DNA from: Croceicoccus marinus
GTDB taxonomy: Bacteria; Pseudomonadota; Alphaproteobacteria; Sphingomonadales; Sphingomonadaceae
Assembly: GCF_001661675.2 (NCBI RefSeq)
Contig: NZ_CP019603.1
Coordinates: 697,622 to 761,621 of the forward strand
Direction of reading: 5' to 3'
DNA length: 64,000 nt
A model generated the notes under the pieces. It did no database searches and was not told the origin of the DNA. It saw only the letters and a program-made list of their open reading frames with translations. A program made the position numbers and the translations under genes. Every line of letters starts with the position of its first letter. The first letter of the stretch is position 1. Positions 351 to 16,108 of this stretch are shown in pieces.

Positions 351-1811
351 ATGACGGATTTCAATACTGCGGCGGCCAGGGCCGGCGACCATTCCGCGGT
401 TTCGGAAAGGCGCAAGTTCGTCGCATTCCTGACGGTGCTGACCGCCGTGGTGCTTGAAGTGGCCGATTCCACCATCGTCAATACCGCGCTGCCCGCTATT
501 CGCGACGGGTTGTCCGCTTCGCCGGCGGCGATGCAGTGGATCGTCGCGGGCTATCTGCTGACGCTGGGATCGTTGCTGCTGCTGGGCGGAAGGCTGGGCG
601 ACGCGTTCGGCCATTCGCGCGTGTTCCTGATCGGGGTCAGCGCTTTCATCCTGGCATCCGTCCTGTGCGGCCTGGCGCAGAGCCCCGAGCAGCTGGTGTG
701 GGCACGCATGCTGCAGGGCGCGACCGGCGCGGTGATGGCGCCGCAGACCATGGCGATCGTGCAATTGCTCTACACCCCGCTCGAACGCGTATCGAAGCTG
801 GCCTATTTCGGCGTGATCGTTGGGCTGGCCGCGATCATCGGGCCGATCGTGGGCGGCGTCCTGATCGAACTCGACCTGTTCGGCCTTGGCTGGCGGCTGG
901 TGTTCCTGATCAACCTGCCGATCGGCGTGGCGGCGGTCCTGGTGGGCTGGTTCGCGCTGCCGCCGCGGCAGGCGGAAAAGGATCTGCGCATCGATCCGGT
1001 CGGTGCGGCGATCTTCGCCGCGGGCTTCGGCGGCCTGCTCTATGCATTGATCCAGGGTGCCGAGGTGGGCGTAAGCGTCCCGCTTGCCGGGCTGTTCGCG
1101 GTGTCGGGCGTCCTCATCCTGTTCGGCTGGTTCCGGGCGCGCAGGCGCAGGCTGGCCGGATCGCCCGCGATAATCGAGCCGCGCCTGTTCGACATCGGCA
1201 CTTTCAAATGGGGCGTATTGTCCTCCTTCTGCTTCTCCAGCGCGGGGATCGGCTTCTTGCTGGTGCTGGCGGTATCGCTGCAGCAGGGGCTGGGGCTAAG
1301 CCCGCTGCAGACCGCGCTGGTGCATATCCCGTTCGGGGCAGGGGTGATGCTCGGCGTCGGCTTCCTGGTGCCGCGCCTGCTGCCGCGGCTGGGCAAGGCG
1401 CTGCCTGTCGCGGGCGGCTTCGCGATGATCGCCGGGACCACGCTGGTCCTGCAGGCGATCAAGGGCGGCAACGGCGGTGACGTCTTCCTCTATGCGGCGC
1501 TGCTGCTGGCGGGGATCGGGATGGGCACGATGTCGGGCCCGCTCGGCCCGATCGTCGTGGCAGAGGTTGATCGGCAGAACGCCGGCACCGCCAGCGCCAC
1601 GTTTCGCACCGCGCAGCAGATCGGCGGGGCCTTGGGCATTGCGCTGATCGGCGGCGCCTATTTCTCGGTCGTGGGCGAGGAATCGGTGGCGCGGCTGAAA
1701 GGGCTGGCTCCGGCCAATGCCGTTATGGCGCTGGCGCTTGGCCTTGCGATCCTGTGTGTGTTGAGGTTGCCGCGCGACATTTTTGGCCAGGGCCGGAATG
1801 CGCGGGATTGA
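351..1811 (+). CDS. MFS efflux/uptake permease, DHA2 (EmrB/QacA) family
   Basis: The product is 486 aa, the usual length for 14-helix DHA2 drug:H+ antiporters of the inner membrane. An acidic loop motif (GGRLGDAFGHSR, about residue 80) matches MFS motif A, and GPIVGGVLIE (about residue 170) matches the antiporter motif C region. The ATG at 351 follows GGAGGGG. The tail ends in charged residues without a further domain. It stands just upstream of the catabolic operon, on the same strand but separated by about 160 bp with an inverted-repeat cluster, so it may be expressed separately. Export of toxic aromatic intermediates or uptake of the substrate are both possible; the sequence does not decide. 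Confidence 0.85.
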   Translation: MTDFNTAAARAGDHSAVSERRKFVAFLTVLTAVVLEVADSTIVNTALPAIRDGLSASPAAMQWIVAGYLLTLGSLLLLGGRLGDAFGHSRVFLIGVSAFILASVLCGLAQSPEQLVWARMLQGATGAVMAPQTMAIVQLLYTPLERVSKLAYFGVIVGLAAIIGPIVGGVLIELDLFGLGWRLVFLINLPIGVAAVLVGWFALPPRQAEKDLRIDPVGAAIFAAGFGGLLYALIQGAEVGVSVPLAGLFAVSGVLILFGWFRARRRRLAGSPAIIEPRLFDIGTFKWGVLSSFCFSSAGIGFLLVLAVSLQQGLGLSPLQTALVHIPFGAGVMLGVGFLVPRLLPRLGKALPVAGGFAMIAGTTLVLQAIKGGNGGDVFLYAALLLAGIGMGTMSGPLGPIVVAEVDRQNAGTASATFRTAQQIGGALGIALIGGAYFSVVGEESVARLKGLAPANAVMALALGLAILCVLRLPRDIFGQGRNARD

Positions 1812-1855: not shown

Positions 1856-1973
1856 CAGATCATGGAGAGGCATCGTTTCTGCTCAGGCTGAACCTGTCTT
1901 TCCGGGATCGACAGCAGGCGCAGGCGCGCGGTGATGCTCGCCGCGGACTTGCGCCCGATCAAAGGAATTGCCC

Positions 1974-2879
1974 ATGAACGCCCGTGTTACGGAAATCCGC
2001 TATGTCGGTTACGGCACCAGTGACTTCGACGCCGAGCGCGCCTTCTATGCCGACGACTGGGGTCTGGTCGAAGTTGCGGCGACCGACGACATGGCGTGGT
2101 TCAAGACCCACGGCCATGACGAGCATCACGTCGTCCGCCTCCATCGGCGCGAAGGCAATTGCGTCGAGGTGATCGCGCTGGCCGCCGACAGCCGCGAGGA
2201 TGTGGATGCGCTGCTGGGCAAGGTGCAGGACGCCGGCTGCAGGATTATCCACGATGCGCGCGAGCTTGACGCGCCCGGCGGCGGCTATGGCTTCCGCTTC
2301 TTCTCGCCCGACGGCCTGCCGTTCGAGATCAGCGCCGATGTGAAGCGCGCCGACAAGCGGGCGATGGAACGCTGGGAAGGCATGCCGGTCAAGATCAGCC
2401 ATATCGTGCTGCATTCGCCGGACCATCAGGCGGCGGTGAAGTTCTTCACCGACGTGCTGGGCTTCAAGGTGTCGGACTGGCTGGGCGATTTCATGTGCTT
2501 CATGCGCTGCAACAGCGCGCATCACCGCATCGCGCTGCTGCCGGGGCCGCCGTGCCTGAACCATGTCGCCTATGACATGCTGTCGGTCGACGACATGATG
2601 CGCGGCGCCGCGCGGCTGAAGAAGCGCGGCACCGACCTGCGCTGGGGTCCGGGCCGCCACACCGCGGGCAACAACACTTTCAGCTATTTCACGACGCCAT
2701 CGGGCTTCGCGGTGGAATATACCTCGGAACTCGAGGAAGTCGATTTCGAGACGCACGAGCACAAGGTCCACGAACCCGGTCCGCAGGTGATGGACCAGTG
2801 GGGCACCGGTGTCGGCGGCCCGCAGACCATGCCCAAGCCCGAGGCCGATCCCTGCCTGTTCACTCCGGCGGAGGTCTGA
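1974..2879 (+). CDS. Two-domain extradiol ring-cleavage dioxygenase (VOC family)
   Basis: The protein is 301 aa with two vicinal-oxygen-chelate modules (about 1-125 and 138-260), the architecture of type I extradiol dioxygenases such as BphC. The expected Fe(II) ligands are present in the second module: His143 (KISHIVLHS), His197 (LNHVAYDM) and Glu248 (FAVEYTSE). Such enzymes cleave catechols next to the hydroxyls using O2 in the cytoplasm. The ATG at 1974 is preferred over an upstream in-frame TTG at 1968 because AAAGGAA ends just before it. It is the first gene of an operon; the hydrolase starts 4 bp after its stop. The substrate is not predictable from sequence alone. Confidence 0.9.
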   Translation: MNARVTEIRYVGYGTSDFDAERAFYADDWGLVEVAATDDMAWFKTHGHDEHHVVRLHRREGNCVEVIALAADSREDVDALLGKVQDAGCRIIHDARELDAPGGGYGFRFFSPDGLPFEISADVKRADKRAMERWEGMPVKISHIVLHSPDHQAAVKFFTDVLGFKVSDWLGDFMCFMRCNSAHHRIALLPGPPCLNHVAYDMLSVDDMMRGAARLKKRGTDLRWGPGRHTAGNNTFSYFTTPSGFAVEYTSELEEVDFETHEHKVHEPGPQVMDQWGTGVGGPQTMPKPEADPCLFTPAEV

Positions 2880-2882
2880 TCC

Positions 2883-4040
2883 TTGGCGCTCTATTCCCCC
2901 TTCAAGAACTACATCTGGAACCTGTCGGTCGCGATCGCGATGGAAAGCGGCGGGCGCATCGGCGAGATCGTCGACATGTGCCAACCGATCCTGGATGCCG
3001 CCGACAACGGCGCGGACGCCGGCACGCCGCTGTTCATGAAGCAATGGGCGGCGATGGGCCGCAAGCTGCTGGACCTTGCGGCCGAGGACGAGGCGAAGGG
3101 CCGCGCCTTCTCCGCCTCGAACAAGCTGGAGCGTGCCTCGCTCTATCTGTTCACGGCAGAGCGGATGCAGGGTCACGGCCATCCGGGCCGGACCGAGACC
3201 TATGCCATGGCGCGCGAGGCGTTCGACCGCTCGACCGCGCTGGGCAGGATCGAGCGCGAGCGTGTCGAAGTGCCGCTGGAGGGCGGCACCATGCCCGCGC
3301 TGTGGACCCGCGCGCCCGGAGACGGTCCGCGGCCTGCCGTGGTGTTCTGCAACGGCCTCGATAGCTGCAAGGAACTGCTCTACTGGACCCGCCTGCCCGA
3401 ACAGCTTGCCCGGCGCGGCATATCGACCCTGTGCGTCGACCAGCCGGGATCGGGCGAAGCGCTGCGCCTGCAGGGCATGCCGGTGGATCCGCATAGCGAG
3501 AGCTGGGCGTCGAAGGCGGTCGACTGGCTGGAACAGCAGGCGGAAGTCGACGCGAAGCGCATCGGCATGACTGGCATTTCGCTGGGCGGCCATTTCGCGC
3601 CGCGCGCGGTCGCCTATGAACCGCGCTTCGCCAGCGGCGCGGTGTGGGGCGCCAACCACAACTGGCGCGAAGTGCAGGACAAGCGCATGCAGCGCGAGGG
3701 CGAGAACCCGGTCCCGCATTACTGGGCGCATGTGCACTGGGCGTTCGGCGCGACGGACCAGGAGGACTTCCTGGAAAAGTCGCGGGAGATGAACCTCAAT
3801 GGCCACATGGACCGGATCAAGGTGCCGTTCCTTGTCACTCATGGCGCTAACGACCGCCAGATCAGCCCGTCCTATGCCGACGACCTCTACGACCAGCTGG
3901 TCAATTCGCCGCGCCGCGAGAAAATCATCTTCACCGCGCGCGAAGGCGGGGTCGAGCATGTCGGCGCCGACAACATGGCCTATGGCCGCGACCTCATCGC
4001 TGACTGGTTCGCCGAGACGCTGGGCGGAATGACCGCATGA
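2883..4040 (+). CDS. Alpha/beta hydrolase, FrsA/DUF1100-like, probable meta-cleavage product hydrolase
   Basis: The 385-aa protein has an N-terminal helical extension (1-130) and an alpha/beta-hydrolase core. The catalytic triad is clear: Ser233 in GISLGGH, Asp324 in THGANDRQ and His359 in GGVEHVG. The layout resembles 2,6-dihydroxypseudooxynicotine hydrolase, a C-C bond hydrolase of this fold. Directly after an extradiol dioxygenase, hydrolysis of the ring-fission product is the likely job; that is inference. The start is a TTG with GGAGG 8 bp upstream. The stop overlaps the next start (ATGA), indicating translational coupling. Confidence 0.85.
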   Translation: MALYSPFKNYIWNLSVAIAMESGGRIGEIVDMCQPILDAADNGADAGTPLFMKQWAAMGRKLLDLAAEDEAKGRAFSASNKLERASLYLFTAERMQGHGHPGRTETYAMAREAFDRSTALGRIERERVEVPLEGGTMPALWTRAPGDGPRPAVVFCNGLDSCKELLYWTRLPEQLARRGISTLCVDQPGSGEALRLQGMPVDPHSESWASKAVDWLEQQAEVDAKRIGMTGISLGGHFAPRAVAYEPRFASGAVWGANHNWREVQDKRMQREGENPVPHYWAHVHWAFGATDQEDFLEKSREMNLNGHMDRIKVPFLVTHGANDRQISPSYADDLYDQLVNSPRREKIIFTAREGGVEHVGADNMAYGRDLIADWFAETLGGMTA

Positions 4041-4363
4041 GCAGCATTGCAGAGGTACTTGTCGCCACCGAAAACGCCGCCCGATATGCCGCGCAGCTGG
4101 GCAAGCACTGGGCGCATAATCTGGATGTCAGCGAAAACGGCGACACAAGGCAGATCGTGTTCCCCAAAGACGCTCGCGGCGCGGAGTGGCAGGGCGATGC
4201 GCTGGTGACGCTCGACCCGCGGGACGATGCGCTGCTGGTGCGCATAGAGGCGAGCGAAGAGGGGCAGCGCGACGGCCTCAAGGGCGCGCTGCAGACCCAT
4301 ATCGACCGTTTCGCCCACCGCGAGGGTCCGCTGACCTACGACTGGCAGGATCTGCCGGGATGA
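4037..4363 (+). CDS. DUF2218 domain protein
   Basis: This is a 108-aa protein with the pattern of DUF2218: ATENAARYAAQLGKHWAHN near the N terminus, an IVFPKDARGAEW strand region, and the closing THIDRFAHREGPLTYDWQ. It is probably cytoplasmic. Its biochemical role is unknown; DUF2218 members often sit beside iron or redox genes. It overlaps the hydrolase stop by 4 bp and its own stop overlaps the following start, so it is a translationally coupled operon member. Confidence 0.85.
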   Translation: MSSIAEVLVATENAARYAAQLGKHWAHNLDVSENGDTRQIVFPKDARGAEWQGDALVTLDPRDDALLVRIEASEEGQRDGLKGALQTHIDRFAHREGPLTYDWQDLPG

Positions 4364-4788
4364 AGCGGGGTTTGGGTTCCGGTACCCTGCTGCCTCGGGC
4401 TGCACTGGCCCAGCCTTCGGCGCTGGCGCTCATGCTGCTCGACCCGGTCGAATTCGACCGTGCGGCGACCACCGGGAAGCCATCGCGTGACCATTCCGCG
4501 CCCGGACAATGGTTCGTGATGGGCGGGGATCCGACCCCGTCGGCAGGCACCGAACTGCCGCGGGACGAGCGGACAGCCTTCATCGCGCCGATCCATCCCC
4601 GTATGGGGGCGCGCACCCTGAATGCCTGCGGCCCGGTCGAATTCCATCTCTACAATGACGGCGGGCATGGTTTCGGGTTTGGCCGCCGGGGCAGTGCTTT
4701 GGCAGGGTGGATCCACGATTTCACCAGCTGGCTGCAGGTGCAGCCGCAGCCGGGCGCGGGGGACGTCGTCAACTTCAAATGCCGCTAG
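4360..4788 (+). pseudogene. Remnant of an alpha/beta hydrolase (esterase C-terminal part)
   Basis: An open frame of 142 codons begins with ATG overlapping the DUF2218 stop. Its second half, VEFHLYNDGGHGFGFG then WIHDFTSWLQ, is what is expected around the catalytic His of BD-FAE/acetylxylan-esterase-type hydrolases. GGDPTPSAGTELPRDERT before it resembles the segment preceding the catalytic Asp in the same family. There is no nucleophile motif and no N-terminal half, and the expected Asp region (IAPIHPRMG) is altered. I read it as a decayed, internally deleted gene; a short functional protein cannot be excluded. Confidence 0.5.
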
Positions 4789-4843: not shown

Positions 4844-5413
4844 ATGGAAACTAAGGCAGTCAGGCGCGTCGTCACCGGTCACGACCGGGAGGGGCGCGCG
4901 ATCATCCAGGAGGACGGCGCGGTGCCGCGCGTCCAGCAGGTCGGCGGGGCGATCGGCCCGATGTTCCACGAGGTGTGGAATACCCGCGCCACCCCCGCGC
5001 CCATCAACGCCGCCAGCGGCGAGCCTGCCGAGGACGGCATCGTGCTGGCGCCACCGAGGAACGGAACCCGCATCCGCATCCTGGACATTCCGCCCGAAGG
5101 CGAGGGCATCCGCAACATGACGCCCGAGGAAGCCGCCGCCCATTTCGCCGAGATCGGCGCAGGCCACGCCTCGAACGCGGCGAAGGAAGGCGCGAAGCAC
5201 GCGCTGATGCACCGCACCGAGACCATCGATTATGGCATCGTGCTGGAAGGCGAGCTGGTGCTGATCATGGACGAGGGCGAGACCACCGTGCGCGCGGGCG
5301 ACATCATCGTGCAGCGCGGCACCAACCATGGCTGGGCCAATCGCAGCGACCGCAACTGCCGCATCTGCTTCGTGCTGATCGACGGGGAGTTCGACGCCGA
5401 ACTGAAAGGCTGA
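4844..5413 (+). CDS. Cupin-domain protein
   Basis: The 189-aa protein has a C-terminal single cupin (about 115-180). MHRTETIDYGIVLEGELVL gives cupin motif 1 with His123, Glu126 and Glu135, and VRAGDIIVQRGTNHGW gives motif 2 with His162. The second histidine of the classic HxH motif is replaced, as in a large cupin subgroup found beside ring-cleavage and FAH genes. The N-terminal part (RRVVTGHDREGRAIIQEDG) is typical of that subgroup. It could be a metal-dependent isomerase, decarboxylase or dioxygenase acting on ring-fission products; the sequence does not decide. An AGGGA site precedes the ATG. Confidence 0.85.
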   Translation: METKAVRRVVTGHDREGRAIIQEDGAVPRVQQVGGAIGPMFHEVWNTRATPAPINAASGEPAEDGIVLAPPRNGTRIRILDIPPEGEGIRNMTPEEAAAHFAEIGAGHASNAAKEGAKHALMHRTETIDYGIVLEGELVLIMDEGETTVRAGDIIVQRGTNHGWANRSDRNCRICFVLIDGEFDAELKG

Positions 5414-5540
5414 AGCCGATGGACCGGCGGCCCCTTCCCTGTCCCGGTGCGTTGATGACCGGGGCAGGCGCGGTGCCTGTCGTTCCGACCGCCTTCGCAT
5501 GCCGCCATGGCGCCAGCCCCAAAAAATTCCGGAGTATCCC

Positions 5541-6506
5541 ATGAAATTCGCCACGCTTCGCAACGACACGCCCGATGGGCAACTGATCATGCTGTCCTCC
5601 GACGGCACGCACGCATTGCCGGTGGGTAAGGCGGCGCCTTCGATGCTGGCGCTGGTTGAGCGCTGGGACGAGGCGCAGGACGCGCTGGCGCAGACTCGCC
5701 AACGGCTGGAAGCCGGCGAGGGCACACCGGTGCCGGAAGGCGGTCTTGCCGCGGCCATGCCGCGTTCGTGGCAATGGCTCGACGGATCGGTGTTTCCGAC
5801 GCACGGCGAACTGATGCAGATCGCGTTCCATTTGCCGCCGATCGAGACCGACCGCCCGCTGATGTACCAGGGCATGTCCGACCGCTTCTATGGCCCACGG
5901 GACGACATCCCGTTCCCCAGCGCCGAACACGGCATCGATTTCGAGGGCGAATACGGGATCATCACCGACCACGTGCCGATGGGCACCTCGGCGGAAGAAG
6001 CGATGGACCGCATCCGCCTGCTGGTGCAGGTCAACGACTGGTCGCTGCGCGCCATTGCCCCGATCGAGATGAAGACCGGCTTCGGCTGGGTGCAGGCCAA
6101 GCCCGCATGCTCGATGGCGCCGGTCGCGGTCACGCCCGACGAGCTGGGCGACGCATGGCGCGACGCGCGCATCTGCCTCGATCTCGAGGTTGAGCTGAAC
6201 GGCAAGCGTTTCGGCCATGCCAATGGCCGCGAGATGGCGTTCGGCTTTCACGAGCTTGTCGCCCATGCGGCGCTGACGCGCGACCTGGTGGCGGGCACGA
6301 TCATCGGGTCGGGCACCGTGTCCAGCCCCGATTACGCGTCTGTCGGGTCGAGCTGCATTTCCGAAGTCCGCGCGATCGAGATGATCGCCGATGGCGAGCC
6401 GAAGACGCCTTTCATGTCCGCGGGCGACCGCATCCGCATGACGGGCCGGGCCGCCGACGGCTCTGCCCCGTTCGGCACCATCGACCAGAAAGTCGTGCTG
6501 GCGTGA
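5541..6506 (+). CDS. Fumarylacetoacetate hydrolase (FAH) family protein
   Basis: The protein is 321 aa with a small N-terminal domain and a C-terminal FAH fold. The divalent-metal carboxylates are seen in HGIDFEGEYGIITD (Glu135, Glu137) and VNDWSLR (Asp166). FAH relatives hydrolyse, hydrate or decarboxylate 2-oxo/2,4-dioxo acids at the end of meta-cleavage pathways, which fits the operon. The ATG at 5541 is chosen because GGAG lies 6 bp upstream and the family starts MKFATL-like; an in-frame ATG at 5499 is upstream of that site. It follows the cupin gene by 127 bp and precedes the TIM-barrel gene by 81 bp on the same strand. Confidence 0.88.
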   Translation: MKFATLRNDTPDGQLIMLSSDGTHALPVGKAAPSMLALVERWDEAQDALAQTRQRLEAGEGTPVPEGGLAAAMPRSWQWLDGSVFPTHGELMQIAFHLPPIETDRPLMYQGMSDRFYGPRDDIPFPSAEHGIDFEGEYGIITDHVPMGTSAEEAMDRIRLLVQVNDWSLRAIAPIEMKTGFGWVQAKPACSMAPVAVTPDELGDAWRDARICLDLEVELNGKRFGHANGREMAFGFHELVAHAALTRDLVAGTIIGSGTVSSPDYASVGSSCISEVRAIEMIADGEPKTPFMSAGDRIRMTGRAADGSAPFGTIDQKVVLA

Positions 6507-6587: not shown

Positions 6588-7595
6588 ATGGCATCCAAGA
6601 TCCGCAGGGGCGTCAGCCTCTATAGTTTCCAGGAGGAGATGTTCCTCGGCCAGATGAGCGTGGAGGACTGTGTGTCCTTCGCCGCGTCCATCGGTGCCAA
6701 GGGCATCGAGGTCCTGCCCGAACAGAACATGCCCAGCTTTCCGAACGTCACCGATGCCGAGATCGCGGGCTGGCACGAGATGCTGGAACGGCATGGCTGC
6801 CATTTCACCTGCTATGACATGTTCCTCGACACCAAGCTGCGTAACGACCGGCTGCTGACCGATGACGAGCAGGTCGAGAGCATCCGCCGCGACCTGACCT
6901 TGTGCAACCGCATGGGCATCCGCAACATGCGCGTGCTGATCTTCGTGCGGCCCGACATCCTGGAACGCTGCGTCCCTTATGCCGAGGAGCTGGACGTGCA
7001 CATGGGCGTCGAGGTCCATGCGCCGTGGTATCTGGACCACCCGTGGATCCTGCGCACGATCGAGGTCGCGGACCGGCTGAACACCAGGCACCTGGGTATC
7101 CTGCCCGATATGGGCATCTTCATGAAGCACTATGTGCCCGAGATGCGCGCCCGTTTCGAACGCGAGGGCGCGCGTCCGGAAATCACCCAGTTCATCGTCG
7201 ACCAGCACGAGGAAAAGGTGATGTGCGAATACACCATCTACGAGGTCGCGGTGAAGATGAAGGGCAACCCGACCGAGATTCGCATGGCCGAGACATTGCG
7301 CCACGCGCCCTTTGCCAATCCCAAGCGGATCGGGGATTTCGCGCCCTATTTCCGGCACATCCAGGCCAAATTCTATGGCATGACCGAGGATTGCCGTGAT
7401 CCGGCGCTGGCCTATGACGAGGTGATCCCGGAACTGGTGAAGGCAGGCTGGGAAGGCACGCTGTCCAGCGAATACGAAGGCAATCGCTGGGTACAGGACG
7501 TCGAGGACGTCGACAGCCGCGAACAGGTGCGCCGCCAGCACGAGATGTTCAAGCGCCTGCTGGGCGAAACCGCAAACGGGCAGGAGGACGCCTGA
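6588..7595 (+). CDS. Sugar isomerase/epimerase TIM barrel, C-glycoside deglycosidase alpha-subunit-like
   Basis: The 335-aa protein is a xylose-isomerase-like (AP endonuclease 2) TIM barrel. Candidate metal ligands are Glu142 (VEVHAPW), Asp174 (ILPDMG), His257 (YFRHIQ) and Glu295 (SSEYEG). AAGGAG precedes the ATG. Its stop overlaps the start of a DUF6379-type gene (TGATG). This exact pairing is the hallmark of C-glycoside deglycosidases (DgpB/DgpC, CarB/CarC), which cleave 3-oxo-C-glycosides after oxidation of the sugar. The usual oxidoreductase partner is not seen here but could lie beyond the left edge. Acting on a non-sugar ring-fission product is the alternative. Confidence 0.8.
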   Translation: MASKIRRGVSLYSFQEEMFLGQMSVEDCVSFAASIGAKGIEVLPEQNMPSFPNVTDAEIAGWHEMLERHGCHFTCYDMFLDTKLRNDRLLTDDEQVESIRRDLTLCNRMGIRNMRVLIFVRPDILERCVPYAEELDVHMGVEVHAPWYLDHPWILRTIEVADRLNTRHLGILPDMGIFMKHYVPEMRARFEREGARPEITQFIVDQHEEKVMCEYTIYEVAVKMKGNPTEIRMAETLRHAPFANPKRIGDFAPYFRHIQAKFYGMTEDCRDPALAYDEVIPELVKAGWEGTLSSEYEGNRWVQDVEDVDSREQVRRQHEMFKRLLGETANGQEDA

Positions 7596-7984
7596 TGTTC
7601 GACAAATACACCATCGATCCCGACAGCGTCACCGACATCGGCCCCGCGGACAGCCCGACCGGTTTCAGCTTCACCACCAAGCTGGGCTATTATCGCGGGC
7701 TGACCCTGTCGATGCTGGAGGAGCTGACCGTGGCCGTGGACGGCAAGGAACTCCCGCGCGAGGCGGTGAGCTTCGACGACGGCAATGGCCCGATCACGCT
7801 GGAGGAGATGGAGACCGCCTATGACCGGCGCTGGAACTTTGGTGCTCCGGCCACGCTGTCGGTCACCTATCCCGGCGGCTTTCCCAAGGGCGAGCACACT
7901 CTGTCGCTGAAGCAGAGCCTGCGCATCAGCTATATGCCGTTCCCGGCGGTGCGCTTCACCGAAAAGACCATCGTTAAGGGCTGA
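7595..7984 (+). CDS. DUF6379-type protein, C-glycoside deglycosidase beta-subunit-like
   Basis: The 129-aa, probably all-beta protein has the pattern I associate with the small subunit of C-glycoside deglycosidases: FSFTTKLGYYRGLTLSMLEE, then TVAVDGKELPREAVSF, RRWNFGAPATLSVTYPGG and GEHTLSLKQSLRISYMPF. In characterised enzymes this subunit packs on the TIM-barrel subunit and helps shape the active site. Its start overlaps the stop of the TIM-barrel gene, so equimolar synthesis is likely. It is the last operon gene; a strong hairpin lies 7 bp after the stop. I assign it from remembered family features, not a search. Confidence 0.75.
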   Translation: MFDKYTIDPDSVTDIGPADSPTGFSFTTKLGYYRGLTLSMLEELTVAVDGKELPREAVSFDDGNGPITLEEMETAYDRRWNFGAPATLSVTYPGGFPKGEHTLSLKQSLRISYMPFPAVRFTEKTIVKG

Positions 7985-7991
7985 CGACATG

Positions 7992-8019
7992 GCGGCCTGC
8001 CAATCGCTTGGCAGGCCGC
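7992..8019 (+). terminator. Perfect 12-bp hairpin ending the catabolic operon
   Basis: GCGGCCTGCCAA and TTGGCAGGCCGC pair perfectly around a TCGC loop, directly after the stop at 7984. There is no strong T-run, so termination may be assisted or the hairpin may protect the mRNA end. Confidence 0.7.
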
Positions 8020-8086
8020 GCTTGGCCGGTGTTTTATCGCCGGTGTATTATCGGAACCGCGATCGCAGCGACGCTGCCCCCGCGGT

Positions 8087-9123: not shown

Positions 9124-10061
9124 GAGGTGGTCCTGCCTTCTTGGACAGTTTGGCGGCAGAGTTAAGCTAATCCCGGTTTTCGTTATGCTGCCTGCTGATC
9201 ATCAGATCATGGGGGGCATACCCCCCATGATCTGATTGTCCGATCCGCCGATAGGCCTCGACCGGGGTTCGTCCGGCGAGGCCTGAGTGCGGACGTTGGG
9301 TGTTGTAATAGGTGATCCACCGACCAAGACCAACCCGCAGCTCTGATCCGGTCTCGAAGGCTTGGAGGTAGACGCACTCGTACTTCAGAGATCGCCAAAG
9401 GCGCTCGATGAAGACGTTGTCCATCCACCGGCCCCGGCCATCCATGCTGATGCGGACTTCGGCATGGCGCAGCACGCTGGTGAAGGCTTGCGACGTGAAC
9501 TGGCAGCTTTGGTCCGTGTTGAAGATTTCCGGCTTGCCGAACCGAGCCAGCGCCTCCTTCAGCGCCGCGACACAGAAGCCAGCATCCATCGTGTTCGACA
9601 ACCGCCAAGGCCAGCACCTTGCGGGTCGCCCAGTCCATGACCGCCACCAGGTAGAGGAAGCCACGGCGCATGGGGATGTAGGTCACGTCGGCACACCGCA
9701 CGTGATTGGGCCGTTCGATCGCCAGCTTGCGCAGCAGATAGGGATAGACCCGGTGCTGCGGGTGTGGATCACTAGTCCGCGGTCGTTAACAGATCGGCGT
9801 CAGCCCCATCTTCGCCATCAGCCGCCGCACACGCCGTCGACCGACCTCGTGACCCGCACGCCGCAAGTGTCGCGCCATCTGGCGGCTGCCATACCACGGG
9901 CATTCCATGAACGCCTTATCTGAAGCAGGCGACATTGTGCCGAGATCGACAAACGGTGATGAGCAGGTTCGATCATCGAACGCCTCCGCGCCACGCTCAT
10001 CGACCGGAGGCTTTCCCTAAAAAAATCGCGTTCCACGACCAGTTGACCGATTTTGACGTGC
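9124..10061 (-). mobile_element. IS3-family element, truncated and decayed
   Basis: The left end TGAGGTGGTCCTGCC-TTCTTGGACAG (from about 9123) looks like an IS3-type terminus, and a similar end recurs at 27411-27440. The transposase within is frameshifted. The right side is cut at 10061 by the next IS3 element, so orfA is almost entirely missing. Confidence 0.6.
9167..10060 (-). pseudogene. IS3-family transposase (orfB), frameshifted
   Basis: Pieces of an IS3 integrase appear in different frames. KIGQLVVERDFF and MIEPAHHRLSISAQCRLLQI are the N-terminal start of orfB. MRCADVTYIPMRRGFLYLVA begins the DDE core. FGKPEIFNTDQSCQFTS carries the second Asp, FIERLWRSLKYE the Glu, and YYNTQRPHSGLAG the C-terminal signature. 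At least two frame changes (around 9610-9640 and around 9800) make it nonfunctional. Confidence 0.8.
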
Positions 10062-10098
10062 TGGACTTGTAACGGTTTTGTGCCGGTCACCCATCTCA

Positions 10099-10985
10099 CT
10101 ATGCCACCTTGGCTTCGAATGCGAGCGGGCTAATGCCATCCAGATATGAATGGCGTCTGCGGGTGTTGTAGAACCCGTTGATGTATTGGAAGATGGCGGC
10201 TTCTGTTTGGCGCCGTGTTGGTCAGTTCTGCCGCCAGATCAGCTCTGCCTTCAGCGATTTGAAGAACGTCTCGACGGCGGAATTGTCGTAGCAGTTGCCT
10301 TTGCCGCTCACCGATGGTCGCAGGCCATAGGCCTGCAGTTTCTTCTGATAGTCATACGCGCAATATTGGCTACCGCGATCGGAAGGGAAAAGACATCCTG
10401 GCGGCGGATTGCGGAGGCGTACGGCCATGTTCAGTGCCCGGATCGCTAGGACCTTCTTCATCCGATCGCTGACTGCCCAGCCCACGACACGGCGGCTGTG
10501 CAGATCGAGAATGACGGCAAGATAGAGCCAACCTTCCTGCGTCCAGACATAGGTAATGTGTCCTACGGCTGCGCCTCCGTTCAGCTTCGCTTCCTCCAGC
10601 CCATTTCTGGTTGGGCGCATCGGCAACGAAATCGCCATCAAGCCAGTTCGCGGCGACACCCAGACGATGATGGCTATTGGTCGTGACCTTGTGCTTGCGG
10701 GTACGAACCGGCTTAATGGGATTGATCCGCATCAGCCTTCCTACTCGGCGCTCGCCGACATCGAGGCTGGCCTCCTTTAGTTCCATCGTCATCCGGGGGC
10801 GGCCATAGCTGACAAGTCTCAGGCTGTACTGCTCGCGAATATGCGCCAGCACCTTCATGTCCGTTCGTTCCCGGCAACTGATCGGGGGCGCGCGCCAAGA
10901 GCGATAGCCGCGCTCGCTGACCTGCAAGACACCTCAATTCCACTGGCCAACGGTGCCGCCAGCTGTGCACGAAAGCGAACCTCAC
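10099..10985 (-). pseudogene. IS3-family orfB transposase, disrupted
   Basis: The DDE integrase is recognisable: RERTDMKVLAHIREQYSLRL, then WLDGDFVADAPNQKWAG, HITYVWTQEGWLYLAVILDL, SDRGSQYCAYDYQKKL and CYDNSAVETFFKSLKAELIW. A frame change with extra bases separates NQKWAG from HITYVWT near 10590-10610. A second shift lies near the N terminus (around 10930). A TGA at 10219-10221 truncates it before the C-terminal YINGFYNTRRRHSYLDG. All three defects argue that it cannot be made intact. Confidence 0.85.
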
Positions 10986-11254
10986 GGCTTTTGGCTTGCG
11001 AAGAATTGCGTAGCCTTTTTTGGGACCTCCCTCTCCTCCCGCAGCACACGGTTCTCCAGACGAAGTCGTTCATTCTCCCGCTCTAGATCGGTATCGGGGC
11101 TGGCAGGCAAGCCATCCTGTCGATACAAACTCACCCAGCGCGTCAATGTCGACAAACCGATGCCCAGATCGGCTGCCACGCGCTTGCGCGGCAAACCGCT
11201 GGTCAATGCAATCCGCACCGCCTCGCGCTGAAATTCTTCTGAATGTTTGATCAT
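10982..11254 (-). CDS. IS3-family orfA (helix-turn-helix transposase subunit)
   Basis: The 90-aa protein starts MIKHSEEFQREAVRIALTSG and has the IS3/IS911 OrfA helix-turn-helix (KRVAADLGIGLSTLTRWV) followed by a leucine-zipper-like segment (ERENERLRLENRVLREEREV). In IS3 elements OrfA is fused to OrfB by programmed -1 frameshifting. Here OrfB is broken, so this OrfA would be made alone and could only act as a repressor. Confidence 0.8.
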   Translation of the reverse strand: MIKHSEEFQREAVRIALTSGLPRKRVAADLGIGLSTLTRWVSLYRQDGLPASPDTDLERENERLRLENRVLREEREVPKKATQFFASQKP

Positions 11255-11319
11255 CTCTTCGGTCTCCTTGAATGAGCAATATGCTCTCAAGTGACCGGCA
11301 CAAAACCGTTACAAGTCCA

Positions 11320-11622
11320 AGCCGCTCCTGGAACGGCCCAAGCCGAGGCAGCGGTTGAACCGTGCGGCGATAATCGAATGCGCCTTCTGGTGCCCGGATC
11401 GCCTTGCGCACCACCTTGCGGGATAACCGCAGATCGCGCGCAATCGCCTTGATCGCCTTCCCGCTCGCGTGTTCCCGCCTAATCCGAACGACCGTCTCCA
11501 CCATCGACATCCCGATCTCACCACCTGTAAAACCAGGTGGTCAACTACACCATAAGAATAAGGGGTTTCCTTTAGACGCCGATCACCCCGCTAACAGGGT
11601 CCCTTTTGCACGCCGATCCACA
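11320..11622 (-). mobile_element. istA: IS21-family end with truncated istA
   Basis: From 11510 the minus strand reads MSMVETVVRIRREHASGKAI, the same N terminus as the IS21 istA at 42278, and stops matching at 11320 where the IS3 element begins. The outer end, with GGTCCCTTTTGCACGCCGAT repeats ending CCACA at 11622, matches the terminus of the larger IS21 at 42390. Only about the first 65 codons of istA remain. Confidence 0.85.
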
Positions 11623-11768
11623 GACATATCCTGCAATTAGCGCCGCAGGGTTCATGGCTAAGGATGTTTCCCCCTATCCCTACAACCATGGCCTCCACAC
11701 TGAGGTTCGGCCCGTCCACCATCCCGGTGAGCGGGCCGTTCTCGTTTTGAGGAAAACTTGGAAAAGGC
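11623..11768. other. Unassigned DNA between IS21 and IS66 ends
   Basis: These 146 bp separate two IS ends. No gene, repeat or RNA is recognised; it is probably a fragment of older DNA. Confidence 0.3.
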
Positions 11769-11820
11769 GTATCCGTCCGGTGAAGGCCGCAGCGTGATGC
11801 CGACTTGAGTGTAGGTCGGG

Positions 11821-12039
11821 TTACGCGGCGATCGCGTTCCGGTGGGGCGTCCAGTTCCAGGGCAGGAGCTCGTCGAGCCGTGTGGCAGGATGATCGGCGA
11901 TGCGCGCGAGGACATCAGCAAGCCATGCCTGCGGATCGACGTCGCCCAGCTTCGCGGTCTGGATCAGGGTGTAGATGATGGCGGCGCGCTGGCCGCCACG
12001 ATCGGATCCGCAGAACAGCCATGCCTTGCGGCCAAGCGG
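11821..12039 (-). pseudogene. tnpC: IS66 tnpC, C-terminal piece
   Basis: LGRKAWLFCGSDRGGQ through DELLPWNW forms the last 73 codons of the IS66 transposase. It joins exactly to the piece at 14621-16048 when the recombinase element is removed, as in the uninterrupted copy at 55713. Confidence 0.85.
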
Positions 12040-12524
12040 CATCGCCCGTTCATTCTGCCCATGTCGGCGAAGAGCGGGAAGTTCACTATCCTTGGCATCC
12101 CTATTTCGGGCGGAAAGTCAGCGTACGGCGGGTAGAGGAGCGAGCGACGGGGCGCTTTCTCAAGGTCGAAGGCCCATCTGGCATCGTCGTTTCGATGCCT
12201 GGTTGGATGGTTGATCCGGTCGCCTGCTCCAAGATGAGAATCGGCCCGCCCCAAGTTGATGTTGCAGCGCTTTCCGATTTGAAGAGGCTGGTCACCGCGG
12301 TCGCTGCTTCACCAAACTCCCAACGCGATGATGGAGTCGCATTGGAGGAAGTCGATGAACAAGCACGACACGCCCGCACCGGCCTCGGGCAGACAGATGA
12401 GCCTGATCTTCGAGCCCCGGAGGGTGGACGGGATGAGCGAGGCGGAACGGACGAAGGCCGTAATCACGCTTGCTCAAATCCTGATGCAAGCCGCTGGCCT
12501 CGTCGTCGAGGAGCTCGGCGATGA
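12021..12524 (+). CDS. DUF5372-like protein of a serine-recombinase element (start uncertain)
   Basis: The frame carries REVHYPWHPYFGRKVSVRRV, then FLKVEGPSGIVVSMPGWMVD and VDVAALSDLKRLV. This is the pattern of DUF5372 proteins that precede serine recombinases in alphaproteobacteria. No ATG, GTG or TTG lies between the element boundary (12040) and this region. The only start in frame, ATG 12021, is in antisense IS66 sequence, so the true N terminus may have been lost or replaced. The C-terminal 55 residues overlap the next small gene in another frame. Function is unknown; a role in the recombination system is inferred from context only. Confidence 0.55.
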   Translation: MPCGQAASPVHSAHVGEEREVHYPWHPYFGRKVSVRRVEERATGRFLKVEGPSGIVVSMPGWMVDPVACSKMRIGPPQVDVAALSDLKRLVTAVAASPNSQRDDGVALEEVDEQARHARTGLGQTDEPDLRAPEGGRDERGGTDEGRNHACSNPDASRWPRRRGARR

Positions 12525-12534
12525 CCGGCACTGA
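12355..12534 (+). CDS. Small protein preceding the serine recombinase
   Basis: A 59-aa frame starts MNKHDTPAPASGRQMSLIFE and ends LMQAAGLVVEELGDDRH. A GGAGGAAG site is present upstream. Its end overlaps the recombinase start by 14 bp, indicating coupling. Such short proteins commonly sit between DUF5372 and recombinase genes. The predicted helix EAERTKAVITLAQILMQAAG could mediate contact with the recombinase; this is inference. Confidence 0.6.
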   Translation: MNKHDTPAPASGRQMSLIFEPRRVDGMSEAERTKAVITLAQILMQAAGLVVEELGDDRH

Positions 12535-14593
12535 TTTAATCCCGGCGCAACTGCTGAAGCGCAAGGCCGTCGTCTACGTGCGACAATCGACACAATCCCA
12601 GGTCATGACCAACCTGGAAAGCCAGCGGCGGCAATACGACCTCGTCGACAGCGCACGTCAGCACGGTTTCACCGATATCGAAGTCATCGACGATGATCTC
12701 GGACGATCCGCGAGCGGAACCGTTGCGCGGCCCGGCTTTGATCGCCTGGTCGCATCATTGTGCGCGGGCAAGGTGGGTGCCGTGCTGTGCCTCGATGCGT
12801 CAAGGCTCGCGCGAAATGGTCGCGACTGGCACCATCTGCTGGAACTGTGCGGGCTCGTTGAAGCCCGTGTCATCGATCATGATGGCGTGTACAATCCTTG
12901 CCAGCCCAACGACCGCCTACTCCTGGGAATGAAGGGCAGCATCAGCGAGTTCGAGCTCGGCGTTCTCAGGACGCGAATGCTCGATGCCGCGAGGTCGAAG
13001 GCGCGCCGCGGCGAATTGCGGTTGTCTGTCCCGTTCGGCTACATCTGGCACCGCGAAGCGGGCCTGGGACTCGATCCCGACTTACGCCTTCAGGAGGTAA
13101 TCCGGCTCATCTTTGCGCGCTTCCGAGAGCTGGGCAGTGCGCGTCAGGTGCTGTTGTCTATGAAGGCCGATGGAATCCACTTCCCGCGGCCTTCGGACGA
13201 AGGCCGCATGACCAGCTTCACATGGTTACCTATCCGCTATCGCAACGTCATCGCCGTCCTCAAAAACCCCTTCTATGCAGGTGTTTACGTCTACGGGAAA
13301 AGCGAAAAGCGGACTACCATTGTCGATGGGCGAGCGCGGCGAAGCTACGGGCATGGCAAGCCGGTCGGAACCTGGGAGGTGTTCATCAAGGAGCACCACG
13401 AGGGCTACGTCAGCTGGGAAGAATACGAGCGCAACCAGAAGCAGCTGGCCCTCAACAACTATGGCCGCGCTGGCGGCGTAAAGTCAGGCCGAGGCGGCAA
13501 GGCACTGCTGTCAGGGATCATGACGTGCGGACGGTGCGGGCGGCGACTGAGCGTTGCTTACACCGGTAACCCGCAAAGTCGGCCAGTCTACCGCTGTGAC
13601 AAGCCGAACCTGATGATGGGCTTACCTCGATGCATGACCTTTGGCGGTCTACGAGTGGATGCAGCAGTTGCGCGCGAACTGCTGCGCGCGGTAGAACCCT
13701 TGGCGATCGAAGCCGCGTTCGAGGCGGAGCGGATGAACCGGGAACGACAAGAAGAGCAGCGCCAGATCCTCGACCTGGAACTCCAGCAGGCGCGCTACGA
13801 GGCCAGCCTAGCCGAGCGCCGCTACGCAGCTTGTGATCCCGATAATCGCCTGATAGCGGCGCAGCTGGAGAAAAACTGGGAAATCGCGCTCCGTCGCGTG
13901 CGGGACTTGAAGGCTCGCCAGCCTGCGGAAGGGCCCTCGACCATCGAGGCCGATCCAAATGCCTTCGCCAATCTGGCGGAAAACCTGTCGGCGGCCTGGA
14001 ACGCTCCGGATGTGACGATGCGCGCTCGCCAGCAAATGCTACGTACAATGATCGCCGACATCGTCGTCGATGTCGATGATGCCGTGCGTGACGTCGTGCT
14101 CACGATCCATTGGCGGGGCGGCCAGCACTCGGAACTGCGGGTTCGCAAGCCGAAAGCCGGCGAGCACGGTTGTGCAACAGCGGAGGATGCGCTGGAGGTG
14201 ATGCGCAGCATGGCGGGCCGTTGGTCCGACGAGCATATCGCCGCGACGCTGAATCGGATGGGCTTGCCCACCGGCCAAGGCAAAACCTGGACGGCGCACC
14301 GGGTCTACTCTGTTCGGCGCGTGCGAGGGATCGATGCCTATCGGTCTGCGGTGAAAGACGGCGAATGGCTCACCATGACTGAGGCGGCCAAAGCGCTTGG
14401 CACCTCAAGCCATACGATAAGACTTCTCATCAAAACCGGCGTGCTTCCGGCAGTGCAGGTCGTACCGCGCGCACCGCATCAAATCCGCTCCGCCGATTTG
14501 ATGTCGGAAGCGGTAAAATCTGCGATGGCCCGAAAGGGTCGCCCGTGTCGCGTTGTTGACGCGGACATGCTTCCAATGTTTACAGATACTTGA
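12521..14593 (+). CDS. Large serine recombinase
   Basis: This 690-aa protein has a resolvase catalytic domain (about 15-160) with the nucleophile in VVYVRQSTQSQ and arginines in ESQRRQYDL and ASRLARNGRD. A recombinase domain (about 180-300) follows, then a zinc ribbon (CGRCGRRLS... YRCDKP, about 335-370), a coiled-coil (EERQEEQRQILDLELQQARY-like, about 405-450), and a C-terminal MerR-like helix-turn-helix (WLTMTEAAKALGTSSHTIRL). It catalyses site-specific integration and excision through a Ser-DNA link. It is the last gene of the element, and its stop lies 27 bp from the right junction. Confidence 0.92.
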   Translation: MTGTDLIPAQLLKRKAVVYVRQSTQSQVMTNLESQRRQYDLVDSARQHGFTDIEVIDDDLGRSASGTVARPGFDRLVASLCAGKVGAVLCLDASRLARNGRDWHHLLELCGLVEARVIDHDGVYNPCQPNDRLLLGMKGSISEFELGVLRTRMLDAARSKARRGELRLSVPFGYIWHREAGLGLDPDLRLQEVIRLIFARFRELGSARQVLLSMKADGIHFPRPSDEGRMTSFTWLPIRYRNVIAVLKNPFYAGVYVYGKSEKRTTIVDGRARRSYGHGKPVGTWEVFIKEHHEGYVSWEEYERNQKQLALNNYGRAGGVKSGRGGKALLSGIMTCGRCGRRLSVAYTGNPQSRPVYRCDKPNLMMGLPRCMTFGGLRVDAAVARELLRAVEPLAIEAAFEAERMNRERQEEQRQILDLELQQARYEASLAERRYAACDPDNRLIAAQLEKNWEIALRRVRDLKARQPAEGPSTIEADPNAFANLAENLSAAWNAPDVTMRARQQMLRTMIADIVVDVDDAVRDVVLTIHWRGGQHSELRVRKPKAGEHGCATAEDALEVMRSMAGRWSDEHIAATLNRMGLPTGQGKTWTAHRVYSVRRVRGIDAYRSAVKDGEWLTMTEAAKALGTSSHTIRLLIKTGVLPAVQVVPRAPHQIRSADLMSEAVKSAMARKGRPCRVVDADMLPMFTDT

Positions 14594-14620
14594 ATACGGA
14601 GTGCATAATGAAACACGCTT

Positions 14621-16048
14621 CGGGATGCAGCGCAGCGCGCGCTCGGCGGCGTTGTTGGTGAGGCAGATGCGGCCATCGTCGAGGAAGCGGGTGAACGCAT
14701 CCCAGCGCTTCAGCATGTAGAAGCAGGCCTTGGTGAGGTCATGACCGCGCGATAGCTTAGCGACCTGCGCAGTAAGCCAGGTGTGGAGCTCGGCCATCAG
14801 CGGCGCGCTGAGTTCCTGACGGACTGCGAGCCGCTCGGCAGGACTCTTGCCGTTGATGCCGCGCTCGATGTCGAACAGGGCGTCGAGACGCTGCACGGCT
14901 TCGAGCGCGATCGGATAGATCATGCTGCTGCGCTGGCCGCGGCTCTTCTTGCGGGCTGAGCTCAGGACATCGGCGAGCTCGAAGAACTTGCGCCTCGCAT
15001 GAGCAAAGCAGCCCGCTTCCAGCACGGGACCGGGGGCGCGGTCCCCGCGATAGAGATCGTTGTAGCCACTATAGGCATCGGCCTGCAGGATGCCGGACCA
15101 TGCCGCGAGATGGGCTTGCGGGTGCTCGCCGCGCCGATCGCGCGAATAGTGGAACAGGGCAGCTGGAGGATCGGTGCCTGCAAAGGGACGATCATCGCGT
15201 ACGTAAACCCATAATCGCGCCGTATCGGTCTTGCCCTTCGCCATGACCGGCACGGTGGTATCGTCACCGTGGATCCGGGTTGCAGCCAGAACATGCGTCT
15301 CGATGAGCTTGTAGATCGGCATCAGCGCATGGGCAGCTGCCCCGACCTGATCGGCAAGAGTCGAGAGGCTGAGCGGCACGCCTTCGCGGGCAAACCGCTC
15401 GGCCTGGCGGTTGAGGGGCTGGTGCTGTCCATACTTCTCGAACAGGAGCATCGCGAGGAAGCTGGGTCCGGCCCATCCGCGGGGCACCACATGGAAGGGC
15501 GCGGGGGCCTGCGCAATCTTCTCGCAGTCGCGGCACGAGAACTTCTCGCGCACCGTCTGGATCACCTTCCACGAGCGCGGGATGACCTCGAGCGTCTCGG
15601 TGACGTCTTCGCCGAGCTTCGAGAGCCGATCCCCACCGCAGGCCGGGCAGGAACAGGGCGCAGGCACCACGACGCGCTCGCGCGGCAGATGCTCGGGGAA
15701 CGGCTTCCTTGTCGGGCGCTTGCGCTCGAGGGCGGTGACCGTGGCGGTCTTGGCCGCCGCTCCCTCGGCGATCAGGTCGTCTTCGGCGGCATCAGCCTCG
15801 AGCTCTTCGAGCTGCAGCTCCATCTGGTCGAGCAGACGGCGGCTGCGTTCGGCGCTGGGGCCATACTGCTCGCGCTTGAGCTTGGCGATCTGCAGCTTGA
15901 GGTGAGCGATCAGCGCCTCGATAGCGCTCTGGTGGGCCATGGCGTTGGCAAGCCTGGCCTCTGCCTCATCGGCCTTGCGGGCCATCGCCACCACCAGCGC
16001 CTTGAGCGCTTCGACATCGTCCGGAAGGGGCGAAATGGCGGCTTCCAT
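14621..16048 (-). pseudogene. tnpC: IS66 tnpC, N-terminal piece
   Basis: The frame begins MEAAISPLPDDVEALKALVV, includes a coiled coil, a zinc-finger (CSCPACGG, CRDCEK) and the DDE core (RIHGDDTTVPVMAKG, GILQADAYSGY), and reaches AERALRCIP before entering the inserted element. It is therefore cut about 73 codons short of the end. Confidence 0.88.
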
Positions 16049-16108
16049 AGACCGGAGTGAATCATCATCCACCCTCTGCTGCAAGGGCAAAACACCGCCT
16101 CGCGCCGA

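Follow-up and report, generated by a model that had tools for sequence, protein, structure and literature searches.

A 64,000-nucleotide stretch of the genome of Croceicoccus marinus (contig NZ_CP019603.1, positions 697,622 to 761,621 of the forward strand; hereafter called the window) contains an aromatic ring-cleavage operon that ends with two genes for the α- and β-subunits of a C-glycoside deglycosidase (CGD)-type enzyme. The operon probably belongs to a composite unit for the catabolism of aromatic C-glycosides, among which a C-glycosyl flavonoid is the most likely substrate; this reading draws on sequence comparisons and gene neighborhoods, and we assign it a probability of about 0.72. 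This figure was lowered from 0.74 because two of the four genomes of the order that encode the β-subunit family CGDB hold other CGD types, and because the candidate sugar oxidase is located in the run of another pair. A preliminary description of the window had proposed, as the first of two readings, that sugar removal and ring cleavage are encoded in one operon. Homology to solved enzymes, the kept catalytic residues and a candidate oxidase next door speak for this reading, as do the dioxygenase and hydrolase genes that accompany the pair in 20 of 63 related loci and the like combination in Ideonella and Deinococcus. The 63 loci are distinct, were obtained in one scan of genome contigs, and are 73-96% identical to the window.

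Identity of the deglycosidase-type pair and its metal site

The preliminary description had noted a CGD-like pair overlapping by one base, and the family and structure matches bear this out. The open reading frames (ORFs) of α and β have base 7595 in common, with the junction TGATG. The α-subunit scores 48.8 bits against PF01261 (cut-off 31.1) and the β-subunit 123 bits against PF19906 (CGDB, "C-glycoside deglycosidase beta subunit"; cut-off 27.6), and their best matches among solved structures are 8qvc_A (E 7.8e-107) and 8qvc_B (E 8e-20), respectively. 8qvc is nearly identical to a protein of Deinococcus aetherius. All eight PDB matches of the β-subunit are CGDB-type chains or a β-α fusion, and eight of the nine matches of the α-subunit are partners of such chains or the fusion; the further α matches are 9m3b, 9m3a, 7bvr, 7xrf, 8qrz, 7dnm and 7bvs, and the ninth, 8z1i (Art22), is weak. 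Homology thus confirms a CGD-type α/β pair at the operon end. However, we describe it as CGD-type with an altered site rather than as a canonical CGD, because the position of a ligand histidine is occupied by Gln259.

In AgCGD2, the metal ligands are Glu147, Asp179, His269, Lys271 and Glu305, and the catalytic residues are His149 and Glu307 (Mori et al., PMC8563793; here and below, literature statements refer to the accessible parts of the cited papers). Residues of the window α-subunit were mapped via the alignment with 8qvc and common motifs, not against AgCGD2 itself. In this mapping, the equivalents of Glu147, Asp179, Lys271 and Glu305 are E142, D174, K261 and E295, which are kept in all 64 orthologues, and the equivalents of His149 and Glu307 are H144 and E297, which are likewise invariant (64/64). 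The column of His269 corresponds to Gln259, and all 64 window-type sequences have glutamine there. Among the ligands listed in the preliminary description, Glu142, Asp174 and Glu295 were correct, but His257 was not, since this residue is conserved in the window clade but lies outside the ligand column (residue 259). The loss of metal ligands, which that description held to count against a deglycosidase, is found at one position (Gln for His), while the other ligands are kept.

In a tree of 84 α-subunits, 69 with Gln and 15 with His at the ligand column, two changes are required, although the tree comes from a quick method, has SH-aLRT values as its sole measure of support, and drew a program warning about some long branches that meet. 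The α homologues numbered 679 in all, 5 of which were taken from the best 120, and the distribution of Gln and His was mapped on the 63 loci together with plasmid records and solved chains, since the phylum-wide CGDB search had just 3 of 398 genomes above cut-off. The first change to Gln falls on the window clade, and the second on a clade composed of a third CGD pair from the same genome, two Sphingomonas proteins, an Arthrobacter protein and the solved fusion 8qrz. Members of the second clade have Phe at residue 257, and hence no His at either 257 or 259. The conserved His257 of the window clade therefore does not seem to be needed as compensation for Gln259. The third local pair (L006:10904-12227; C2:540903-542226, where C2 is the contig that contains the window) likewise combines Gln at the ligand column with Phe at 257, and its nearest relative is the solved β-α fusion 8qrz.

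The uniform Gln in the 64 orthologues might also be taken to mean that the pair has decayed or lacks catalytic activity, the ligand His having been lost. The remaining ligands and the catalytic residues are, however, invariant across the 63 relatives (73-96% identical to the window), and the Gln change is needed again in the branch of 8qrz, with Phe at residue 257, so that we find this alternative scarcely probable. We instead favor an active-site variant with Gln259 that probably still binds the metal via Glu142, Asp174, Lys261 and Glu295. Such a variant probes how far the metal site of the CGDs can vary.

Recurrence of the pair with ring-cleavage and sugar genes

To describe the surroundings of the pair in the 63 loci, genes from our own gene calls were sorted into single-linkage groups at 40% identity, a procedure in which false joins and missed genes are possible. 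The β gene starts on the last base of the α gene in 40 loci and within 120 bases of it in 8 more, while 14 have a single esterase gene (gene X) inserted between the two; in the one remaining locus, L021, β was missed by the gene caller but was found by tblastn. Within 10 kb of the pair, a FAD hydroxylase is present in 33 loci, the dioxygenase in 21, the hydrolase in 22, a PF04199 cyclase in 20 and a fumarylacetoacetate hydrolase (FAH) family gene in 12. Counts by tblastn agree for the dioxygenase (21/63) and are one higher for the hydrolase (23/63). At least one ring gene occurs in 34 loci, and the 20 loci with both dioxygenase and hydrolase have them within this distance. LigA/LigB, from an unrelated ring-cleavage operon on the same replicon, were present in 0/63 loci.

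A ring gene and the pair share a single same-strand run (gaps <500 bases) in nine loci, six of which include a dioxygenase or hydrolase (L015, L016, L023, L029, L033 and L035) and three a FAD hydroxylase as the sole ring gene (L030, L043 and L050). The run in L023 and L029 has the order α-β-FAD hydroxylase-dioxygenase-hydrolase-cyclase. Sugar-side genes (Gfo, a TIM-barrel partner, two GMC types and Gluconate_2-dh3) were found in 31 loci, and a GMC gene of the type present in the C. marinus genome lies within 10 kb of a window-type pair in 14. Neither ring nor sugar-side genes were identified in 14 of the 63 loci, 8 of which are full-length (>20.9 kb) and 6 shorter, and at least two of these are undercounted, as tblastn reveals a FAD-monooxygenase-like gene in L055 and Gluconate_2-dh3 in L039. 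Locus L009 also contains a divergent second CGD pair (L009:7097-8544; α 28% identical to the α of L005) ahead of FAD hydroxylase, dioxygenase and hydrolase genes. More than one CGD lineage can thus occur in a strain, and the lineages may serve for sugars at C6 and at C8.

Genes for GH1, GH3 and GH43 recur in the related loci, and they bear on the possibility that the pair cleaves 3-oxo-O-glycosides by β-elimination, rather than C-glycosides, before the aglycone is ring-cleaved. The CGD-type enzyme PuCGE cleaves 3-keto O- and C-glucosides alike, and the logic of GlycDH, Gfo and TIM-barrel proteins is known for an O-glucoside (PMC10628242). However, the GH1, GH3 and GH43 enzymes could already take O-linked sugars, oxidized O-glycosides break up without an enzyme (PMC12724307), and the nearest solved relative, 8qvc, is the near-identical counterpart of the D. 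aetherius protein, while a cluster for C-glucosyl deglycosylation has been published for D. aerius. Cleavage of O-glycosides by the pair is, on balance, unlikely.

Individual replicons show how the C-glycoside and ring-cleavage genes are arranged. In a congener with a single 3.35 Mb contig (G532), MFS, dioxygenase, hydrolase, cupin, α and β form one run, and a second place in the genome has the order GH3-Gfo-TIM barrel-Gluconate_2-dh3-GMC-dioxygenase-hydrolase-cupin (in two pieces)-FAH. On plasmid pP6W1 of Novosphingobium sp. P6W, one run on the + strand starts with a TonB receptor, glycosyl hydrolases, α, β, GH43 and Gfo, and continues with a sugar isomerase family gene, MFS, GMC, LysR, FAD oxidoreductase, VOC, hydrolase, cyclase and FAH. 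P6W thus has genes for the whole of the proposed route in one co-directional run. The parts are located on both strands within ~15 kb in PP1Y Mpl, and the ring genes are ~6-11 kb from the pair in Sphingobium sp. TomTYG65. In RAC03, a close orthologue lies among sugar genes, and no ring gene is annotated within 14 kb of it. Among plasmid records with an α of at least 60% identity, three of four have ring genes near the pair, and the more distant CGD plasmid loci of Pantoea, Niallia and Enterococcus have no annotated ring-cleavage genes in 5-8 kb on each side.

The ring-cleavage module with and without a deglycosidase

Among 147 genomes from the order, 4 encode CGDB, 10 the dioxygenase (E <= 1e-60) and 13 the hydrolase, and both ring genes are present in 9. 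All four CGDB genomes hold both the dioxygenase and the hydrolase, for which the chance is ~7e-6 by a hand calculation uncorrected for kinship, and the remaining five of the nine genomes have the ring module without CGDB. The window-type pair is present in two of the four, the window's own genome and G144. In a set of 14 genomes of the genus, CGDB occurs in 5, four of which have the dioxygenase, placed tightly to the pair in two (the window's genome and G532). Because G535 is an exception in this set, we do not claim that CGDB is always accompanied by the dioxygenase.

The hydrolase (E <= 1e-40) was found in 11 of 398 genomes of the phylum, and the three with CGDB above cut-off are all among these 11. 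Six hydrolase genomes lie outside the family, and the five of them that lie outside the class were opened. Each has a dioxygenase-like match within 3 kb (29-36% identity over about half of the query), four have a FAD hydroxylase, two a cyclase and FAH, and one a cupin, but none of the five has a CGDB match. The occurrence of the ring module without a CGD argues that the CGD feeds it.

The second reading in the preliminary description was that the pair acts on a ring-fission product. A role as isomerase or C-C lyase within the route of ring cleavage would suit the position of the pair, which ends the operon on its 3' side in both the window and Ideonella, as well as the altered set of ligands. 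This role is disfavored by the genomes that have the dioxygenase/hydrolase module without CGDB (5/9 in the order and 5/5 outside the class), by the RAC03 orthologue among sugar genes, and by the invariance of the catalytic His and Glu of the CGDs, and it appears quite improbable. From these distributions, the pair most likely acts upstream of ring cleavage, where it would free the ring position that is blocked by the C-linked sugar.

Candidate sugar oxidase, hydroxylase and other pairs in the genome

The genome of 4.1 Mb consists of three contigs and contains three copies of CGDB, and the window is located at the end of contig C2. A second CGD pair is located at C2:688032-689446, and its α is 43% identical to that of the window. 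The next genes on its strand encode GH3, Gfo/Idh/MocA, a TIM-barrel protein, and Gluconate_2-dh3 and GMC. The GMC gene and the gene for the Gluconate_2-dh3 small subunit (C2:694103-696433) end 1.2 kb left of the window, and the GMC, TIM-barrel and Gfo genes together span 1.2-6 kb left of it. The preliminary description had stated that the sugar oxidase is not in the window; this holds, and the genes to the left, once checked, provide a candidate 1.2 kb outside, but in the run of another pair. The local GMC protein resembles the large subunits of fructose/glucose dehydrogenases, not pyranose oxidases, and together with Gluconate_2-dh3 it is our candidate sugar oxidase for the window pair. A pyranose-oxidase-type C-glycoside oxidase in this genome was considered and rejected, since no full-length relative of the Deinococcus GMC was found there and the matches to it were only partial and C-terminal. 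The third CGD pair (C2:540903) is flanked by a FAD monooxygenase, MFS and a TonB receptor.

An orthologue of the FAD hydroxylase, 71% identical to that of L009, is located at C2:337115 on the same replicon, ~360 kb off. It lies next to a further dioxygenase and hydrolase, each 90% identical to those of the window (L075:9027-12231; C2:335026-338230). Another FAD hydroxylase cluster (L076:6073-11372; C2:266072-271371) has neighbors of the gene families f26 and f28 and MFS, without a CGD pair; among L045 to L064, several loci have f26, f28 and MFS next to CGD pairs. A LigAB-type ring-cleavage operon, ~23 kb left of the window (L004:12253-14581; C2:672252-674580), could handle the second aromatic ring of a flavonoid.

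Proposed separate assembly in Ideonella and possibly in Deinococcus

As in the window, the pair in Ideonella (L015 and L016) ends an operon, here with the order hydrolase-dioxygenase-FAD hydroxylase-cyclase-FAH-160-aa protein. Compared with the window, the α-subunit is 80% identical, the hydrolase 53%, and the dioxygenase 34% over 125 residues. The cyclase is 75% identical to that of L009, but the cyclase of the CGD-free genome L118 is nearly as close to the latter (73%). In the hydrolase tree, Ideonella clusters with five CGD-free genomes (100/100), and its union with the sphingomonads is rejected by the approximately unbiased (AU) test (p 0.012). In the α tree, Ideonella is placed inside the sphingomonads (99/93), and a clade of α-subunits restricted to sphingomonads is not rejected by the AU test (p 0.096). 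Transfer of the pair to Ideonella is proposed because of the branch support and the levels of identity, the AU test not being decisive. The simplest reading of the trees is that a transferred pair was joined to a resident ring-cleavage operon.

D. aetherius, from another phylum, has α-β-GMC-VOC-cyclase-FAH-hydrolase and two FAD oxidoreductases in one run. Its α is 52% and its hydrolase 55% identical to those of the window, FAH 33% over half its length, and the VOC protein 23%. Like that of Ideonella, the Deinococcus hydrolase falls outside the sphingomonad group. A separate assembly of the Deinococcus cluster is possible. We had considered three independent assemblies but reduced the number to two, since the Deinococcus α and hydrolase are about equally distant from those of the window and common descent is possible.

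Taken as a whole, a single unit may couple the cleavage of C-glycosides to meta-cleavage of the A-ring, the sugar blocking the carbon to be hydroxylated; it would have been assembled independently at least twice, in sphingomonads and in Ideonella, with Deinococcus as a possible third case, with the sphingomonads using a Gln-for-His lineage of CGDs and the Gln site having evolved separately in a second CGD branch. For this full combination of claims we see odds just short of even.

Proposed pathway and points against it

In the proposed pathway, the GMC/Gluconate_2-dh3 dehydrogenase encoded just outside the window would oxidize C3 of the C-linked sugar, and the α/β complex of the window, with a metal in the α barrel, would by homology eliminate the aglycone from the 3-oxo-C-glycoside. 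Removal of the sugar would free a carbon of the A-ring for the group A FAD hydroxylase encoded at C2:337115. By analogy with the ifc and fde pathways, the extradiol dioxygenase of the window would then open the hydroxylated ring, the DHPON-hydrolase-like enzyme would cut a C-C bond of the fission product, and the cupin and FAH proteins would complete the breakdown. As in Agrobacterium (PMC10628242), the TIM-barrel and Gfo/Idh/MocA proteins encoded next to the oxidase would take over the sugar product for hydration and reduction. The two modules would be joined because a C-linked sugar would block ring hydroxylation. IfcA is inactive on isoflavone glycosides, for which a block by the sugar at C7 or C8 has been suggested (PMC11069340).

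Several observations weigh against this pathway. One of the metal ligands is Gln, and mutation of the ligand His to Ala strongly lowered the activity of two CGDs (PMC8563793). No ring gene was found in the available flanks of 29 of the 63 loci. The genomes G065 and G025 hold only other CGD types, which show no linkage to the dioxygenase, at a distance of ~40-50 kb; the dioxygenase is on another contig in G530 and G534, and none was found in G535, where the contig stops within the cupin gene that precedes the pair. The group A FAD hydroxylase is absent from the window operon, and since the oxidase gene shares its run with a different CGD pair, we can only assume that the enzyme serves the pair of the window. 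The likeness to the fde and ifc clusters rests on the protein types described in the paper, not on the Fde or Ifc sequences. IfcA takes isoflavones only, not flavones (PMC11069340), and the hydroxylase here would therefore need another specificity. Xanthones or other phenolic C-glycosides are also possible substrates.

Genes of the operon

The preliminary description had placed the pair in an operon with extradiol dioxygenase, C-C hydrolase-like, cupin and FAH genes, and all of these are indeed located upstream on the same strand (Table 1).

Table 1. Genes and gene remnants of the ring-cleavage operon, in window coordinates.
Feature	Position	Strand	Matches
MFS transporter, DHA2-like, first gene of the run	351..1811	+	PF07690 145 bits; TIGR00711 below cut-off
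Type I extradiol dioxygenase, glyoxalase fold	1968..2879	+	PF00903; PDB 3b59, 1han
Alpha/beta hydrolase, probable C-C hydrolase of ring-fission product	2883..4040	+	PDB 2jbw
DUF2218 protein	4037..4363	+	PF09981 81 bits
Apparent C-terminal remnant of esterase gene X	4636..4764	+	tblastn 48% over 44 aa, E 3e-4
Cupin protein	4844..5413	+	PF07883 42 bits
FAH family protein	5499..6506	+	PF01557 111 bits, PF18288 67 bits
α, CGD-type subunit, TIM barrel, 335 aa	6588..7595	+	PF01261 (xylose-isomerase-like)
β, CGD-type subunit, DUF6379 / CGDB, 129 aa	7595..7984	+	PF19906; PDB 8qvc_B

The dioxygenase, which may start at 1968 (TTG) or 1974 (ATG), has its best match to 3b59 (E 1e-154), followed by the biphenyl-diol dioxygenase 1han (E 3e-17), and is below cut-off for the HpaD/BphC-type NCBIfam models. 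Its residues H145, H199 and E250 are invariant in all 25 aligned rows, Deinococcus included, and we take them to be the iron ligands, as in type I extradiol enzymes. The best PDB match of the hydrolase is 2jbw, the C-C hydrolase of 2,6-dihydroxypseudooxynicotine (E 7.5e-17), on par with the "yellowish-green 1-like" protein 8qd7 (E 8e-17). Its S233, D324 and H359 are invariant (26/26 rows), and its similarity to 2jbw suggests that it probably cuts a C-C bond of the ring-fission product.

The DUF2218 gene overlaps the hydrolase gene by 4 bases and also follows the hydrolase in G065 (L121), but it was not found in the congener G532. The apparent esterase remnant precedes the cupin gene, which stays next to the pair in G532; the cupins IfcD1/D2 have a late role in isoflavone A-ring breakdown (PMC11069340). 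The FAH family gene starts at 5499 or 5541, and its product matches PDB 3lzk (E 6e-76). The operon is framed by a promoter-like site (261-288) and a terminator-like site (8014-8027), both consensus matches only, and terminator-like sites are not enriched (7 versus a shuffle mean of 5.4). To its right, the operon adjoins a mobile-element zone (9167-16090) with IS3-type and IS66-type transposase-like ORFs and a large serine recombinase, as judged by eye.

Comparison with known systems

C-glycosyl flavonoids are plant products that withstand ordinary glycosidases, and their sugar removal and ring opening are usually studied apart. Furlanetto et al. reportedly described, in J Mol Biol in 2024, a cluster of Deinococcus aerius for the deglycosylation of C-glucosyl flavonoids and xanthonoids, and we infer that the closest solved α- and β-subunits (8qvc and 8umc) are the D. 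aerius enzyme. Its relative D. aetherius resembles C. marinus in having α, β, GMC and ring-cleavage genes in one run. However, the D. aetherius α keeps the ligand His where the window α has Gln, its GMC protein and the local one share only 24% identity, over 314 of 514 residues, and its VOC protein is only 23% identical to the dioxygenase of the window. The coupling of a CGD to ring cleavage may already be visible in the D. aerius cluster paper, and its novelty is provisional. No literature that joins a CGD to ring cleavage was found among the matches listed, and the accessible part of PMC12724307 makes no mention of a dioxygenase or a gene cluster.

DgpBC, CarBC, PurBC and AgCGD2 are similar to the window pair in their two subunits, adjacent genes, catalytic His and Glu, and four of the five ligands (PMC8563793, PMC12724307), but differ from it in that the window has Gln for the ligand His. 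For soil CGDs, studied stepwise, the proposed role is "uptake of sugar as a carbon source" (PMC8563793). The Agrobacterium set GlycDH-AtOGE-AtHYD-Gfo follows the same sequence of oxidation, elimination, hydration and reduction, with Gfo and TIM-barrel partners, but AtOGE is without a β-subunit, acts on O-glycosides, and has a His at strand 7 of the metal site (PMC10628242).

The fde (naringenin) and ifc (isoflavone) A-ring meta-cleavage clusters have the same protein types as the set of genes considered here, namely a FAD hydroxylase, a dioxygenase of the glyoxalase type, a DHPON-hydrolase-like enzyme and a cupin, and the CGD-free genomes outside the class match their gene make-up (PMC11069340). 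The accessible part of that paper mentions no CGD or sugar oxidase in these clusters, whereas here the ring set is joined to a CGD pair. The operon suggests that sugar removal is the gate to aromatic breakdown in many sphingomonads, and sequenced strains, among them Novosphingobium sp. P6W and PP1Y, offer a direct way to test the fate of C-glycosyl flavonoids in soil. As judged from the predicted proteins, the CGD pair and the flavonoid-type A-ring meta-cleavage module are each of a known kind, and what seems to be new is the variant formed by their recurrent joining and the altered metal site.

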